From positions 1 through 64,000 of the forward strand of contig CACWZA010000012.1 of the NCBI GenBank assembly GCA_902765215.1: 64,000 nt of DNA, read 5' to 3'. A program made the translations under genes and the position numbers. Under the pieces are notes generated by a model that saw only the letters and a program-made list of their open reading frames with translations, was not told where the DNA came from and did not search any database. This document shows positions 1,392 to 8,963 of the stretch, piece after piece (positions within the stretch are counted from its first letter, which is position 1; the number at the start of each line of letters is the position of its first letter). The stretch comes from an uncultured bacterium (GTDB taxonomy: Bacteria; Cyanobacteriota; Vampirovibrionia; Gastranaerophilales; Gastranaerophilaceae).

Positions 1392-1922
1392 CTAACTCAC
1401 TGCCTCAAACTTTTGTCCCTGCTGAGAGTTTTGAGAAGGTGTTTGTGCAGTAGCGGGAGTTGTCCCGAAAGTTTGTTGTGCGAAAATATCACCTTCTGCG
1501 AAGCTTGTATTGGAATACATATATGGCATACTGTTATTGTTTGAAAACAGTGAAGCGATTTGATTAGCCATCATGTAATCCTGAATAGTCGGTGCACCAT
1601 AAGTCTGTTGAGGAACTGCCGTTGTTGTGGCTTGAGCCTGTACAGCCGGTGCCGTTTGCGGGGTAACCGCTGCCTGACTTTGATTGATTAATCCCAAATA
1701 TTCCTGGAATAATTGTGACTCAAATGTTCCTGAGCCTATAGGTGCTGCACTTTGTTGTGCTGTTTGTACACTTGGTGCTGATTGCGGAACCTGGGTTTGC
1801 GGATAAATGCTTGTTCCAAATGCCTGAGAGCCGAAGAAATCTTGTGATGCTCCTGTTCCGCCTAAAAAATTCACATTTGTTGCTTGTGTGTTCACTGCTG
1901 ATGCAGGTGTAATTGCTGCCAT
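1392..1922 (-). CDS. Gln/Ala/Thr-rich low-complexity protein, unknown function
   Basis: This 176-residue protein is dominated by Gln, Ala, Thr and Pro, with little predicted globular structure and no signal peptide. Near the N-terminus it has VNFLGGTG (residues 17-24), resembling the Asn-Phe-x-Gly signature seen in several other proteins here. It is a single gene with its own terminator at 1282-1308, divergent from the gene at 2150. The sequence just before its start, AGGTATTTTT-ATG, is identical to that before the gene at 42206-42898, and both genes have TTATCATGGT further upstream. I do not recognise a family. Confidence 0.6.
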   Translation of the reverse strand: MAAITPASAVNTQATNVNFLGGTGASQDFFGSQAFGTSIYPQTQVPQSAPSVQTAQQSAAPIGSGTFESQLFQEYLGLINQSQAAVTPQTAPAVQAQATTTAVPQQTYGAPTIQDYMMANQIASLFSNNNSMPYMYSNTSFAEGDIFAQQTFGTTPATAQTPSQNSQQGQKFEAVS

Positions 1923-2149: not shown

Positions 2150-2593
2150 ATGGTTTCGGCAATCAATTCGGTTAATCAATACCCCATAGACAGAGAGTCG
2201 CTTGAAGTTATGCGCAGACTTCAGTCATTAGGTGTTGTGCCAAGCGGAAATCTGATGTTAGACAGACAACGCTTGCAAACCGCTGAATTGCAAAAGAAAC
2301 AGATTACACTGGCTGCTAATTCTGAGGTGAATTTGACAAAGTTAGAAGGAACGGGTAATGATTTTTCTTCAACTATCAATTTCCTACAAAACAGTCAGCC
2401 AACGAGTATCAAGGGTACCGAACAAAACAATAAAATCGGTTTGATTCGAAGTGCGAACCACGATATGTCTGCAGGGAACGGAGTCGTTCCGTTTGCGGAT
2501 AATTCGGCCGGTAAAAAAGACATGCAGTACAGAATGATTGGAGCTGAACAGCTCGCTGAGTTGAATAAACTCAAACTGGGTCTTATCGCATAG
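2150..2593 (+). CDS. Hypothetical protein upstream of the flagellar cluster
   Basis: This 147-aa protein has no transmembrane segment or signal peptide that I can see. The first 60 residues are helical and charged (RESLEVMRRLQSLG, DRQRLQTAELQKK); the rest is Ser/Asn-rich and probably flexible, with a short C-terminal helix (AEQLAELNKLKLG). It starts with ATG at 2150 after AAGGTTTAAAAA. A terminator at 2617-2649 separates it from fliE, so it is not co-transcribed with the flagellar genes, though an accessory flagellar role is possible from position. No family recognised. Confidence 0.6.
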   Translation: MVSAINSVNQYPIDRESLEVMRRLQSLGVVPSGNLMLDRQRLQTAELQKKQITLAANSEVNLTKLEGTGNDFSSTINFLQNSQPTSIKGTEQNNKIGLIRSANHDMSAGNGVVPFADNSAGKKDMQYRMIGAEQLAELNKLKLGLIA

Positions 2594-2858: not shown

Positions 2859-3215
2859 ATGTCAACAAACGGTTTTGCAGCAGGGTTTTACCCGCATTAT
2901 GATTTGAAGCAGAGAATTCAGCATACCAAGTTAGATACGGGTATTGTCGGAATGTATCCTGCAAGAATGGAACGTATTGAAGAACGTCCCGTAGGTGATT
3001 TTAAAGGCGTGCTTTCAGGGTTGGTAGAGCATTTTAACAAAGAGTTGAATGCGCCTGATAACCTGATGAAAGATGTTATGACAGGTAATGAAGATGTCGA
3101 TATTCATGATGTTATGACAGCAATGGCTAAAGCTGAAATTAATGTTAACGTTGCGACTACCGTTGTCGGTAAAATCATTCAAACATACGATAAAATAATG
3201 CAGATACAGGTATAA
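2859..3215 (+). CDS. fliE: Flagellar hook-basal body protein FliE
   Basis: FliE joins the MS ring to the proximal rod of the flagellar basal body. The C-terminal 60 residues carry the family pattern: VDIHDVMTAMAKAEINVNV, then VVGKIIQTYDKIMQIQV to the end, matching the conserved helix that closes FliE proteins. At 118 aa it is of usual length with a slightly long N-terminus. AAAAAGGTG precedes the ATG. It heads the run fliE-fliF; flgB and flgC, often found just upstream of fliE, are not in the window. Confidence 0.85.
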   Translation: MSTNGFAAGFYPHYDLKQRIQHTKLDTGIVGMYPARMERIEERPVGDFKGVLSGLVEHFNKELNAPDNLMKDVMTGNEDVDIHDVMTAMAKAEINVNVATTVVGKIIQTYDKIMQIQV

Positions 3216-3264: not shown

Positions 3265-4911
3265 ATGGATTTCAAAGAATTACTAAACAATAAAAACTTT
3301 TTAATAGGTGCACTGGCCGTAGGTGTCCTTATATTTGCTCTGTTAATAACAGTTGCAATCGTAACATCTGTGAGTGCAAACAAAGGCGGCGGTCAGGTCG
3401 TTAAAGAAAAGGTTATTAAAACTCCTCTTGATTTATTAACAACAGATAACCTTGGTAAGGCGATTGAAATTCAGGCACTTCTTGCAAGAGAAGGTATTAC
3501 TGTTGAAAGAAGAGTAGACGGTACAAAATCTACACTTTTCTTACCAAAATATACACAATCTCAAAGAGACAGAGCACTTTTAGCAATCGTAAAAAGCGGT
3601 CTTATGGATCAAAATGTAGGACTTGAAATGTTTGATAAAGGTGACTTTACCTCTACAAAAGAAGATAAAAAGATTCGTTTAGTGAGAGCAATCGATGGTG
3701 AGTTAGCAAGACTTATCAGAAAAATTCCGCCTATCCAAAACGCATCTGTTTTCATATCTATTCCGGAACAAACAATGTTCTCATCTCAACAAAAACCTGT
3801 TACGGCAACAGTTCAGATTGATATGCCGAGCGGGGATAAGTTAGATGCCTTCAAAGTTAAAGCAATTACAAACCTGCTTATCGGTTCTGTTTCAGGGTTA
3901 ACATCAGAAAATGTTGCCATAACCGATACTAACGGTAATGTTTATAACAGCATTATGTCACCGACAGATGAGCAGGAAGAAAGAATGCGTGAACAAGATA
4001 AGTACATGCAGCAAAAGGTTAACGTTCAGTTAGACAGACTTGTAGGTAAAGGTAACTATACTGCAACAGTATCTACTTTCCTGAAACAAGCTCCTACAGA
4101 AAAATTCACAACTTGGTATGATCCTAATACCAAAACTGCAATGAGCGAACAAACCTTCCACGAAGGATTGGGTGACCAAACTGCTGACAGCAACAGAAAC
4201 ACTAACGCTGTATCAGTATATCTTCCAAACGGTTTACCCGGAGGTGGTGCTGATTCTTCTCAAAACAGAAACTATTCAAGAACCGCAAAAGAAGTTCAGT
4301 ATGGTGTTTCAAAAATACAAACTAACGAATATGCAAATTCAGGAACAATTGAAGATATTTCAATCGCTGTAACCTTAGATAAAGCAGCATTACCTCCTGA
4401 TATTTCAATAGAAGAATTAAAAGAATTAGTTGCTCGTGCAGCATCTCCAAAATGTAGAGCAGAAAATGTATCAATAGCGTTCAACGATTCAAATGATCCG
4501 TATCTCGCATCAGATAACCCTGAAAAGTTACCAAAACCTGAAGAAACAGGTAACCCATGGTGGTTAGCGGTAGCACTCGTAGGCTTGAGTTTGATTATCG
4601 GTCACAGATTCGTAGTAAAACGTTTAGCGAAGATGAGAGAACTCCACGACGACGAAATGGAACTCTTAAGAGAAAAAGCAATGATGCAGGAACGTCAGCT
4701 CCAGGATGTAAGCAGACAGGCAGCAGAGTTGATGAGTCAGCAGGATCAAATGCAGCAAAATCTCATCGAAGAAATTCAGGCAAGAGGCATCGGTATGCAG
4801 GGTGTAGACATTTCACCTCTCAGAGATGCACTGGCAGACCTCAAGGAAGAATTCGAAATGATGGAAGAAGAAGAGGGTGCCGAAAAGATGAAGAGCTGGA
4901 TAGAACAATAA
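3265..4911 (+). CDS. fliF: Flagellar MS-ring protein FliF
   Basis: FliF forms the inner-membrane MS ring that houses the type III export gate and carries the rotor. The 548-aa protein has the two expected membrane helices (about residues 12-34 and 431-451), with a periplasmic ring-building region between them: the EIQALLAREGI motif and the VSIFIPE-type segment ASVFISIPEQ. The C-terminal cytoplasmic tail is acidic and methionine-rich (EEFEMMEEEEG), the part that binds FliG_N in characterised systems. It follows fliE by 49 nt. A hairpin with a T-run at 4912-4934 lies directly after the stop and may reduce read-through into the next gene. Confidence 0.93.
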   Translation: MDFKELLNNKNFLIGALAVGVLIFALLITVAIVTSVSANKGGGQVVKEKVIKTPLDLLTTDNLGKAIEIQALLAREGITVERRVDGTKSTLFLPKYTQSQRDRALLAIVKSGLMDQNVGLEMFDKGDFTSTKEDKKIRLVRAIDGELARLIRKIPPIQNASVFISIPEQTMFSSQQKPVTATVQIDMPSGDKLDAFKVKAITNLLIGSVSGLTSENVAITDTNGNVYNSIMSPTDEQEERMREQDKYMQQKVNVQLDRLVGKGNYTATVSTFLKQAPTEKFTTWYDPNTKTAMSEQTFHEGLGDQTADSNRNTNAVSVYLPNGLPGGGADSSQNRNYSRTAKEVQYGVSKIQTNEYANSGTIEDISIAVTLDKAALPPDISIEELKELVARAASPKCRAENVSIAFNDSNDPYLASDNPEKLPKPEETGNPWWLAVALVGLSLIIGHRFVVKRLAKMRELHDDEMELLREKAMMQERQLQDVSRQAAELMSQQDQMQQNLIEEIQARGIGMQGVDISPLRDALADLKEEFEMMEEEEGAEKMKSWIEQ

Positions 4912-4984: not shown

Positions 4985-6070
4985 ATGGCGATAGAAGGAT
5001 TTGATTATAAAGAGTTTGCAGAGATGATGTCATCACAGGCGGGAGAACTTGTTCCGCCCAATTTTAATGACATGCAGAAAGAGTATGTTGTAAAAACTCT
5101 GACAAACTTTACTCTCTTAGCAGGGGAAGCAATCTCAAACGATCCTAAACTTAATTTTAATGCGGATCAGGCTGTATTTGTTACCCAAATTATTGCGGAA
5201 TGGTCATTCCACAAATCAATCGACCTTGTTCATTCGGGAATTATGCCGGAACATTGGGACGGGGTTATGCAAAAGATTGCATTTACAATCTTTGAGATTG
5301 CAAAACAGGCTATCCAAAAAAATATTCCGCAGGATAAAACTTTGCAGTTGATTGAGCACCATGTAGACAAGACCTACAAAGATGCGATTGACGATTTGGA
5401 AAAACGCGGAATTATTTCAAGCGAAATTTCACAACAGGCAGCAAGCCAGTCTAATATTGACGATATGGCAAGACAGGTTCAGGAACAGGAAGCTGCTGCA
5501 CAAGCTCAGGCTCAGGCACAAGCACAGGCACAAGCCCCGGCTCAACCTGCTGCTCAGCCTCAGGAAGGTGAAGCTGCTCCACCGCCTGCTCCGGCTCCGT
5601 CACCTGTTTCAGGCGACAGACCGATGAAGATGAAGGCAATTGCTATGGTACTTAAGCTGCTTGATAAAAAGCGTTCTGAAGAAGTGCTTGCTCAGTTCTC
5701 TGAAGATGTTGCAAACGAATTAAGAAAATTAGCAAAAACTCCTCGTCTTGAAGAACAGGTTGATTTGCGTGTTGCTAAACAATGTCTTGAAGATTTGAAA
5801 GTTATTTTACCTAAGAAGAAAAAATTATCACAGGATAATATGGTCAGAGAAATGGACAAAATCTTTAACAAACACGACATGGAAACTGTCGAACAGATTG
5901 TTAAATCAGAACGACCGTTTGTAAAAAGATTTGTATCACAATCATACGAAGGTGACTACTATCAGGGTGTTCCGCTGAGAGTTGCCAAGATTCTTGTTAA
6001 CTATGTTCAGGAAAATCTAAAACAAAATGCTGAACAGGAAGCTCCGAAAGAAGAAAAACCACAAGAATAA
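4985..6070 (+). CDS. Divergent rotor-switch protein in the fliG position
   Basis: FliG couples the MS ring to the stator, and this gene occupies the place fliG normally has (fliF-fliG-fliH), but the 361-aa product is unusual. Residues 1-150 form an unfamiliar helical domain. Residues 167-205 are an Ala/Gln/Pro-rich linker. Only the C-terminal 150 residues have a FliG-like flavour: AIAMVLKLLDKKRSEEVLAQF resembles the FliG repeat in which short hydrophobic helices precede an Asp/Glu-rich turn. I do not see the FliG_M EHPQ motif or the charged C-terminal torque helix. It may be a remodelled FliG or a different FliF-binding protein; a canonical fliG may exist elsewhere. Confidence 0.45.
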   Translation: MAIEGFDYKEFAEMMSSQAGELVPPNFNDMQKEYVVKTLTNFTLLAGEAISNDPKLNFNADQAVFVTQIIAEWSFHKSIDLVHSGIMPEHWDGVMQKIAFTIFEIAKQAIQKNIPQDKTLQLIEHHVDKTYKDAIDDLEKRGIISSEISQQAASQSNIDDMARQVQEQEAAAQAQAQAQAQAQAPAQPAAQPQEGEAAPPPAPAPSPVSGDRPMKMKAIAMVLKLLDKKRSEEVLAQFSEDVANELRKLAKTPRLEEQVDLRVAKQCLEDLKVILPKKKKLSQDNMVREMDKIFNKHDMETVEQIVKSERPFVKRFVSQSYEGDYYQGVPLRVAKILVNYVQENLKQNAEQEAPKEEKPQE

Positions 6071-6150: not shown

Positions 6151-6891
6151 ATGATTATTAAAAAGAAAGCTAAGAATAAAACTCCTGAGGAGATAGCGAT
6201 TCAGGAAGCGGAAAAAGAAGCGAAGAGAATTGCTGAGGAGGAAGAGCGTAAACGCGAGGAAATGCTGAAACAAAAAGAAGAAGATGTAAACATCTTCGAT
6301 GTTGACAGCATTGATTTTTCGCAACGTCAGGAACGCAGAACAGGAAACAGAAGAAGGGGTTACCGTCGTATAGACGACAGAAATCTTGTTTCCCGTGCTC
6401 AGGAAGAAGCGCTTCAGATTAAGCAAAGTGCTTATCAGGAAGGGTATAATGCGGGGCTTCAGCAGGCTCAGGCTGATATGGAGAATTTCAGAAATTCTTT
6501 GGCGGCTTTTATGGGCGCAGAAGATAAAGTTTTCAATGAAGTTGCTCCGAATATTCTCAGTATAGCAATGGAAATTGCTCAAAAAATTATTAAAACAGAG
6601 GTAAAAACAGATCCGCAAATAGTTTTGGAAACGGTTTTAGACATATTAAAAACATTATCCAAAAACGAACCGAGGATAGTTTTAAGAATAAATCCGTTAC
6701 AGGTGCAATATATGAAAGACACTCTGCCTGAACAGGTAAGGTTATTAGGTATGGAAGCAAAATTGTCGATACTTTCAGACGAAGGTATAACAGAGGGCGG
6801 GTGTATCGTTGAAACTAATAACGGGCTTGTAGATGCAAGTATTGAGGCACAACTTGAAATAGTTCAAAATGCACTTAGGAGTATGGAATAG
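6151..6891 (+). CDS. fliH: Flagellar export regulator FliH
   Basis: FliH binds and regulates the FliI ATPase and delivers substrates to the flagellar type III gate. The 246-aa protein begins with a highly charged coiled-coil segment (residues 10-50, Glu/Lys/Arg-rich), then carries a QSAYQEGYNAGLQQAQ stretch typical of FliH, where YxxGxxxGxxxA heptads pack helices. The C-terminal V-ATPase subunit E-like domain contains IAMEIAQKIIKTEV and RINPLQVQYMKD. It lacks an upstream ribosome site and seems leaderless. Its stop overlaps the flhA start by one base. fliI does not follow, so the ATPase must be encoded elsewhere. Confidence 0.85.
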   Translation: MIIKKKAKNKTPEEIAIQEAEKEAKRIAEEEERKREEMLKQKEEDVNIFDVDSIDFSQRQERRTGNRRRGYRRIDDRNLVSRAQEEALQIKQSAYQEGYNAGLQQAQADMENFRNSLAAFMGAEDKVFNEVAPNILSIAMEIAQKIIKTEVKTDPQIVLETVLDILKTLSKNEPRIVLRINPLQVQYMKDTLPEQVRLLGMEAKLSILSDEGITEGGCIVETNNGLVDASIEAQLEIVQNALRSME

Positions 6892-8963
6892 TGGCATCAG
6901 AAGGTAAACCGATAAGTGAAATTTCGCTGGCAATCTTTGTCATCATCCTTATTTTGATTTTACTTATGGAGATGCCTACTTGGGTTATCAACTTTTCAAT
7001 CTCACTGAATATTACTCTAGGGATTGTGCTATTAATGATATCTCTCTATATCCAGAAACCTCTTGAATTGGCAGCGTTTCCGACCATTATTCTTTTGGGT
7101 ACAATGTTCAGGCTTGTATTGTCTATTGCCTCAACCCGTCTTATTCTGGCAAAAGGTGAGGCGGGAGAAGTAATCGATGCTTTCGGACACTTCGTAACAG
7201 GGGGTAACATGATTGTAGGGGGTGTAATCTTCCTTATTATCACCGTTGTACAGTTCATGGTTATCACAAAGGGTGCTGAACGTATCGCCGAAGTATCTGC
7301 GCGTTTCGCGTTAGACGCTATGCCGGGTAAACAAATGACTATTGACGCCGACTTTAACGCGGGGTTGATTTCACCGGAAGAAGCGGTCAAAAAACGTGAA
7401 GACTTACAACGTGAATCAAGTTTATTCGGGTCTATGGATGGTGCGATGAAGTTCGTAAAAGGGGATACCTTAGCGGGTATCATTATTACGATTATCAATA
7501 TTGTAGGGGGCTTGATTATCGGTTGTTTGATGCAGCAAATGCCTGTAGCCGATGCGGTCAGCAAGTATACGATTTTGACAATCGGTGACGGTTTGTGTGC
7601 ACAGGTTCCGTCACTTCTTATGTCTATTGCAGCAGGTATCGTCATGACCCGTGCTTCAGCAGATGCGGCTTCTTTGGGTTCAGATTTGACTCAACAAATT
7701 ATGAACAAACCGTATTCACTGTTCTTCGCGTCAGCGTTTCTGTTTCTTATCACAATTACATCACCTATTACGGGTTTGCCGTTCCTTCCGTTCCTGTTAT
7801 TCTCAATAGGGCTTGCTGTTGCAGGTTTTTCCGTACTTATCAATGCGGACGTTCAATCTCAGTTGGGACAGCTTGAAAATGTAAGACAAAATATGCAGGA
7901 TCTTGTTAACCCTAACAAAATGTATGAACGACTTGGGGTTGATGTATTGAGTTTGCAGGTTGGTGCAGGTCTGCTTGTAATTGCCGATCCTGATCAGGAA
8001 GGTCAGCTGCTTGCTAAAATCGCGGCACTCCGTCAGAGAGTTACTGATGAACTCGGTTACATTATTCCGAATATTCGTATTATGGACTCGTCCGCTTTGG
8101 AATCTAACGAGTATATGATTTCTATTCGTGGTAATACTGTTGCCACGGGTTATGTATATCCGGGTAAATATATGGTTATTGCTGATCAGTGGGATGCTGT
8201 TCGTAAGAATGTTCCTGATGATGCAATTATTGCTGTTGACCCTACATATCAAACACAGGCTTACTGGGTTAGTGCGGAGGATGCACAGGCAACTAAACAG
8301 GTTACCGCAGTTGATGCGACAGATGTTTTGGTTACTCACTTACAGGAATGTGTACGTAAACACGTAGACGAAGTTATGACCAAAACAGATGTACTTAAAC
8401 TTATGGAACTTGTTCGTTCTCAAGACCCTACTCTTGTCAACGACTTAGTTCCTGCTATTATTTCAACTTCAGATTTGAGAAAGATTTTTGTTAACCTTAT
8501 CAGAGAAAAAGTTTCTATCAAAGATATTATATTCGTATTTGAACGGCTTTGTGACTATGCAAGATTTTCAAAAGAACCGGACATTTTGTCTGAACGATTG
8601 CGTGCTGCATTAGGTCGTCAGATCTGTCTTACAAATGTTCAGGAGGAAAATATTCTTTACGCACTTACACTTTCGCCTGAATGGGAAAAAGTACTTGATG
8701 ACAGCTGTCAGAGAACAGAGTTAGGTACAATGTTCCTTTTGAACCCTATGCAGGTTCAGGACTTGATTGAATCAACCGCTATGACTCTTATGCGTGCTCA
8801 CCAAAATATCGGCAAACAACCTGTTATCCTCTGTTCGCCTCGTATAAGACTGCCTTTGTTCCAGTTACTTGAACGGCATATTCCGACAATTGTTGTAATA
8901 TCTTATTCCGAACTTATTACGGATATTCGTGTTGAAGCGGTTGATACTATCGGTGAAGGGTAA
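6891..8963 (+). CDS. flhA: Flagellar biosynthesis protein FlhA
   Basis: FlhA is the nonameric export-gate component that docks substrates and chaperones at the base of the flagellum. The 690-aa product has about eight membrane helices in the first 320 residues, with the conserved cytoplasmic loop between helices 4 and 5 (VSARFALDAMPGKQMTIDAD), followed by a large cytoplasmic domain. The best start is GTG at 6891, overlapping the last base of the fliH stop; it gives the expected N-terminus. It is the last gene of the cluster; flhB, fliP, fliQ and fliR are not present in the window. Confidence 0.95.
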   Translation: MASEGKPISEISLAIFVIILILILLMEMPTWVINFSISLNITLGIVLLMISLYIQKPLELAAFPTIILLGTMFRLVLSIASTRLILAKGEAGEVIDAFGHFVTGGNMIVGGVIFLIITVVQFMVITKGAERIAEVSARFALDAMPGKQMTIDADFNAGLISPEEAVKKREDLQRESSLFGSMDGAMKFVKGDTLAGIIITIINIVGGLIIGCLMQQMPVADAVSKYTILTIGDGLCAQVPSLLMSIAAGIVMTRASADAASLGSDLTQQIMNKPYSLFFASAFLFLITITSPITGLPFLPFLLFSIGLAVAGFSVLINADVQSQLGQLENVRQNMQDLVNPNKMYERLGVDVLSLQVGAGLLVIADPDQEGQLLAKIAALRQRVTDELGYIIPNIRIMDSSALESNEYMISIRGNTVATGYVYPGKYMVIADQWDAVRKNVPDDAIIAVDPTYQTQAYWVSAEDAQATKQVTAVDATDVLVTHLQECVRKHVDEVMTKTDVLKLMELVRSQDPTLVNDLVPAIISTSDLRKIFVNLIREKVSIKDIIFVFERLCDYARFSKEPDILSERLRAALGRQICLTNVQEENILYALTLSPEWEKVLDDSCQRTELGTMFLLNPMQVQDLIESTAMTLMRAHQNIGKQPVILCSPRIRLPLFQLLERHIPTIVVISYSELITDIRVEAVDTIGEG

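Follow-up and report, generated by a model that had tools for sequence, protein, structure and literature searches.

Which protein fills the place of fliG in this locus, and what kind of machine does it serve? The window is the whole stretch of DNA that was analyzed, 64,000 nucleotides in length. A preliminary description placed one of its genes exactly between fliF and fliH. That position holds. The open reading frame at 4985-6070 is flanked by genes for a YscJ_FliF/YscJ_FliF_C protein and a FliH protein. We refer to its product as G2 and to the gene set around it as system 2. The window contains the following features.

2859..3215, + strand: fliE of system 2 (Pfam FliE, 6.5e-17), located 5' of fliF in most complete loci
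3265..4911, + strand: fliF (MS ring) of system 2 (YscJ_FliF, 1.5e-35; YscJ_FliF_C, 7.1e-16)
4852..4908, + strand: FliF C-terminal tail ending in ...GAEKMKSWIEQ, which corresponds to the FliG-binding tail of canonical FliF
4985..6070, + strand: fliG-position protein G2, 361 aa, between fliF and fliH
4985..5464, + strand: G2 N-terminal domain (N-domain), residues 1-160, all-helical
5468..5608, + strand: G2 disordered Ala/Gln/Pro linker, residues 162-208
5612..6022, + strand: G2 C-terminal domain (C-domain), residues 210-346, of FliG_N/FliG_M/MgtE_N type
6151..6891, + strand: fliH of system 2 (Pfam FliH, 3.6e-24)
6891..8963, + strand: flhA of system 2 (PF00771, 4.4e-218), below the curated cut-offs of the FlhA and SctV models

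The gene order in the window is fliE-fliF-G2-fliH-flhA. The same order is seen at 80 loci in GTDB, within the reach of their contigs. Upstream of it, loci of the order-level families encode short rod proteins as well as a lytic transglycosylase. The window FliF scored 113.9 bits against TIGR00206 (fliF), which is under the cut-off of 129.75. G2 is a real gene, with a conserved start and 470 encoded relatives in the GTDB collection. The named relatives come from Candidatus Gastranaerophilales or Melainabacteria MAGs (rumen, gut, and faeces). Public MAGs labeled Acinetobacter or Ruminococcus (L146, L174, L184, and L192) carry a Gastranaerophilales-type operon, and their labels are probably wrong. 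In genome G100, three ORFs of 168, 226, and 101 aa (L104:1640-3141, +) separate fliF from the G2 homologue; none of them has a Pfam match. Two ORFs adjoin fliE in the window, at 1392-1922 (-) and 2150-2593 (+), also with no Pfam match. The first is Gln/Ala/Pro-rich. Both could be candidate export substrates.

The AF2 model of G2 was built on 71 homologues and had a mean pLDDT of 88. It contains a helical N-domain (helices at 8-182), a disordered segment (187-209, pLDDT <50), and a helical C-domain (212-352). The pLDDT of the N-domain was mostly >93. This domain carries the motifs EWxFHKxxD, QxxAF, EHxV, and SQSNID. Mean pairwise identity across the order (Gastranaerophilales) was 44% for the N-domain and 29% for the C-domain. 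A novel N-terminal domain, an Ala/Gln/Pro-rich linker, and a faintly FliG-like C-terminal part had been described from the sequence, and all three were borne out. Residues 1-160 have no relative in Pfam or PDB at useful significance, and hhalign gave the N-domain a probability of <1 against each FliG domain. Ala, Gln, and Pro make up 81% of residues 162-208, versus 27% over the whole of G2. The strongest Pfam FliG match of G2 was FliG_M at residues 217-259 (E = 0.0047); it was partial and under the curated cut-off. The EHPQ motif is absent from the G2 sequence, and the Pfam scan found no match in G2 to FliG_C, the torque domain. An internal duplication in G2 was rejected, as hhalign of the N-domain against the C-domain gave a probability of <1. 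Foldseek matches to the full G2 model were dominated by generic helical bundles.

The C-domain was compared with FliG in several ways. Among 33 homologues it had weak Pfam matches to FliG_M (12/33), FliG_N (9/33), and MgtE_N (20/33). The best PDB match by profile was A. aeolicus FliG (0.0088). The hhalign probability of the C-domain was 54% for FliG_N, 36% for FliG_M, and 3% for FliG_C, with control families at ≤0.5%. The full-length G2 profile reached a probability of only 5.7% against FliG, and a domain-wise split was needed. In a fold search with the C-domain model alone, the top match was again A. aeolicus FliG, at an E-value of 1.6, which is not significant. FliG chains made up 8 of the 45 matches, all of which had E-values >1 and low TM-scores. 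The preliminary description had raised a comparison of the predicted structure with FliG. FliG ranks first for the C-domain at that E-value, and the Pfam scan of the protein showed no FliG_C.

In the canonical flagellum, the C-terminal end of FliF co-folds with FliG_N (PDB 5tdy). The FliF proteins of system 2 (in the order, f10, and f12) have a conserved K-x-W-I/L-E/D-type tail, comparable to ...VIRQWINNDHE of E. coli. The signals from the C-domain are individually weak. Jointly with the gene position, they favor descent of the C-domain from FliG. G2 probably retains one FliG-type domain. Alternatively, the C-domain may be an unrelated helical adaptor, SctK-like in function, that took over the slot, with the N-domain as the main functional part. 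This would agree with the weakness of the similarity to FliG, the higher conservation of the N-domain, and its occurrence in paralogues (below). It would not explain why FliG_N/FliG_M/MgtE_N-type matches recur in many members, why FliG is the top match by both profile and fold, or why FliF retains a FliG-binding-type tail. We regard it as unlikely.

The content of the slot varies among families. In f10 and f12 it is a standalone protein of 123-150 aa that matches the C-domain only. These proteins scored 20-31 bits against the full-protein HMM (shuffles, ≤10) and 1e-12 to 1e-42 against the domain profile. In f9 and f14 the protein between fliF and fliH has two domains and 350-399 aa. The f7 genomes G093 and G098 have an additional standalone N-domain (187 aa) between fliF and the G2 homologue. 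This variation shows that the C-domain is a module of its own in the FliG slot and that the N-domain was gained or lost as a unit. The f11 genomes G113, G118, G123, G128, and G137 carry FlhA, but they have no canonical FliG and do not match the single-domain-FliG profile strongly. The occupant of their slot may be more diverged still.

Some paralogues of the N-domain stand alone (159 aa), some carry C-terminal hydrophobic segments, and some are fused to the cytoplasmic domain of FlhA. The following were located outside the operon in Gastranaerophilales.

L257:2613-3092, N-domain paralogue
L258:2830-3309, N-domain paralogue
L259:2674-3378, N-domain paralogue
L262:2543-3232, N-domain paralogue
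L263:2513-3205, N-domain paralogue
L264:2282-3406, N-domain paralogue
L268:2621-3607, N-domain paralogue

At L261:2722-4806 (+) and L266:2633-4411 (+), the N-domain is followed by a hydrophobic stretch and then the FlhA cytoplasmic domain. These fusions do not contain the usual FlhA export-gate membrane part. No N-domain paralogue was detected away from the operon in the window genome. The FlhA fusions tie the N-domain to the export machinery. The fusions and paralogues are the main ground on which we propose that the N-domain may be a docking module.

The window genome contained 2.15 Mb in 47 contigs and was 97% complete. It encodes FliE, FliF, FliH, FliI, FlhA, FlhB, and FliO-R. It also contains an SLT transglycosylase gene and five rod/hook-type genes (flgB-like, flgC-like, two flgF/flgG-like, and one FlgE/F/G-like of 278 aa). 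Its FlhA, FliI, FlhB, FliQ, FliR, and FliF were nearest to flagellar families in NCBIfam, below the curated cut-offs. FliP was the sole protein among those scanned against NCBIfam to pass its flagellar cut-off. A second FlhA-like gene (G000:C2:106828-107835, L272) encodes the cytoplasmic FlhA domain only. It lies in a 507-codon open frame and matches PF00771 positions 321-655 (E = 3e-43). The only SpoA-domain protein found in the window genome is encoded as follows.

L034:9059-10267, - strand: double-SpoA protein, 402 aa, at the head of fliO-fliP-fliQ-fliR, with two FliMN_C stretches

A genome-wide profile search of the window genome found no FliG_C over the cut-off and no canonical FliG. Flagellin and the MotB plug were not found by searches that were positive in 68-70 relatives and in the E. 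coli and B. subtilis controls. FlgH/FlgI were not detected by one chimeric FlgH-FlgI-FlgA query that had no positive control. Pfam and NCBIfam scans gave no SctK-family match. The preliminary description had also looked to fliM and fliN. The genome has no separate FliM, and its sole SpoA protein has no FliM domain match. This double-SpoA protein matched the fliN model at 3.8e-18 and the SctQ model at 1.4e-14, both below cut-off. Any single absence could be an assembly loss, which the pattern of 54 genomes described next makes unlikely.

We surveyed presence and absence in 146 genomes, 110 of them in the order. G2 homologues were found in 105 of the 110 and in six of the seven sampled families. 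The family without one (f5) was represented by a single genome, G091, which was 78% complete. Fifty of the 105 G2-bearing genomes also encode flagellin and a canonical FliG at another locus, and 48 of these 50 encode MotB. G2 was present without FliG, flagellin, or MotB in 54 genomes. Across the 146 genomes, FliG occurs together with flagellin and MotB (68, 70, and 68 genomes) with four single discrepancies, independently of G2. The canonical FliG at L087 was examined in full and contains FliG_N, FliG_M, and FliG_C, all over their cut-offs. In G097 both systems stand back to back (L086). No genome of the window's genus had FliG over the cut-off, flagellin, or MotB. A canonical fliG elsewhere had been considered at the outset; it is missing from the window genome and present in the 50 relatives.

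These results bear on the earlier proposal of an unusual switch in the motor of this lineage. G2 would then act in place of FliG in a functional flagellar motor, as its site between fliF and fliH, its FliG-like C-domain, and the FliG-binding-type tail of FliF might suggest. The proposal is not supported. The window genome has no flagellin, MotB, or FliG_C torque domain, its one SpoA protein has no FliM domain match, and flagellated relatives carry canonical FliG elsewhere. We consider such a motor extremely unlikely.

The FlhA tree has 23 rows in a system-2 clade (100/99) and, apart from it, 15 rows in the flagellar clade of the class (100/99). SctV lies outside every FlhA row; the branches of E. 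coli, Thermomicrobium, Azospirillum, and SctV are long, and their exact joins are unsure. The FliF tree separates 19 system-2 rows (100/100) from 4 flagellar rows. Within the window's genus, which has no flagella, the N-domain had a dN of 0.03-0.05 and the C-domain one of 0.08-0.28, with dS saturated above 1 (above 1.3 in the N-domain). The low dN argues against decay of G2.

Decay has been the published reading of such genes. Di Rienzi et al. (2013; PMC3787301) and Soo et al. (2014; PMC4040986) reported that non-flagellated Melainabacteria have partial flagellar gene sets, and attributed these to genome reduction or to a loss of functional flagella. The flagellin, motor, and rings would have been lost, and the remaining genes, this FliG included, would be degenerating relics. 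Fifty genomes of the order, however, have the same genes alongside a canonical flagellar set. The FlhA and FliF of system 2 form clades distinct from the flagellar copies, 80 loci preserve the gene order, and the dN values are very low. A decaying flagellum is very unlikely.

The two FlhA and FliF clades, the coexistence with canonical FliG, and the absences in the genome place G2 in a second, non-rotary export system. It is therefore likely that G2 serves as the adaptor at the MS ring of a second type III export machine, which is non-motile, descended from flagella, and kept in most of the class (Vampirovibrionia/Melainabacteria). The standalone C-domains, the FliF tail, and the selection on G2 agree with this. 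The preliminary description had offered a different MS-ring partner as its other explanation. That was nearer the mark. The trees show a paralogous FliF/FlhA system, and not a replacement of FliG within a flagellum.

In the proposed machine, the FliF of system 2 would build the MS ring, and its tail would be bound by the lone FliG_N/M-type C-domain. The N-domain would occupy the place of FliG-M and FliG-C. The linker may allow it to reach the SctQ-like double-SpoA ring, the FliH-FliI-FlhA platform, or both. Export would proceed via FliPQR-FlhB-FlhA, and it may assemble a rod/hook-type structure or secrete other proteins. Lacking a torque domain, a stator, and flagellin, and with P/L rings undetected, the machine would not rotate.

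A broader reading is that this is a third type III machine, distinct from both the motile flagellum and the injectisome, and inherited through most of the class. It would combine an MS ring, FliE, and a single-domain FliG. We hold the chances of this to be even. The same even judgment applies to its further parts, which are rod/hook-type proteins, a ring protein resembling SctQ, and a new domain for docking that also occurs in fusions with FlhA paralogues. If true, the third machine would represent a surviving intermediate between flagellum and injectisome, on the flagellar side of that transition. The analysis suggests that the "flagellar genes" of non-motile gut Melainabacteria encode a separate, selected machine and are not the remains of a flagellum. 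G2 would offer a natural single-domain FliG. Torque and filament would have been lost and rod and MS ring kept, which bears on the descent of secretion machines from flagella. For gut-dwelling bacteria, it would add an unexplored export system and open a search for its substrates.

G2 shares with canonical FliG its gene position, a probable FliG_N/M-type domain, and a partner FliF with a conserved C-terminal tail. It differs in having no FliG_C or EHPQ, and in having one FliG-type domain, at the C terminus, where canonical FliG has three. It also adds an N-terminal domain without known relative. System 2 shares the MS ring protein FliF, FliE, and FlgB/C/F/G-type proteins with the bacterial flagellum.

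The SctK/SctQ cytosolic complex of the non-flagellar T3SS would be a functional counterpart. System 2 would likewise have an adaptor between the inner-membrane ring and a single-chain double-SpoA ring protein, and would not rotate. System 2 differs from the non-flagellar T3SS in that its FliF, FliE, and FlgB/C/F/G-type proteins are flagellar in type. SctV falls outside the FlhA clade, with long branches, and the best NCBIfam model is FlhA, below cut-off.

The hat-like inner-membrane structure (Kaplan 2022; PMC9380563) is also non-motile and is linked to proteins of the flagellar T3SS. That structure was reported in species with a flagellar T3SS, to which mutants tie it, whereas in system 2 FliF, FlhA, and the adaptor have genes of their own.

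A search of open-licence papers found none describing system 2. In the ACD20 gene list (Di Rienzi; PMC3787301), flhA appears twice and there is a fliF-(unnamed)-fliH-flhA-fliI run, unremarked there. This run fits system 2.

The nearest parallel is the Myxococcales "Myxo" non-flagellar T3SS of Abby and Rocha (2012; PMC3459982). It is likewise vertically conserved and non-motile, has no motility genes, and was once read as a decaying relic. It does not contain FlgB/C/E, FliE, or FliG. Because system 2, unlike Myxo, retains FliE, rod/hook-type proteins, and a FliG-like domain, it stands on the flagellar side.
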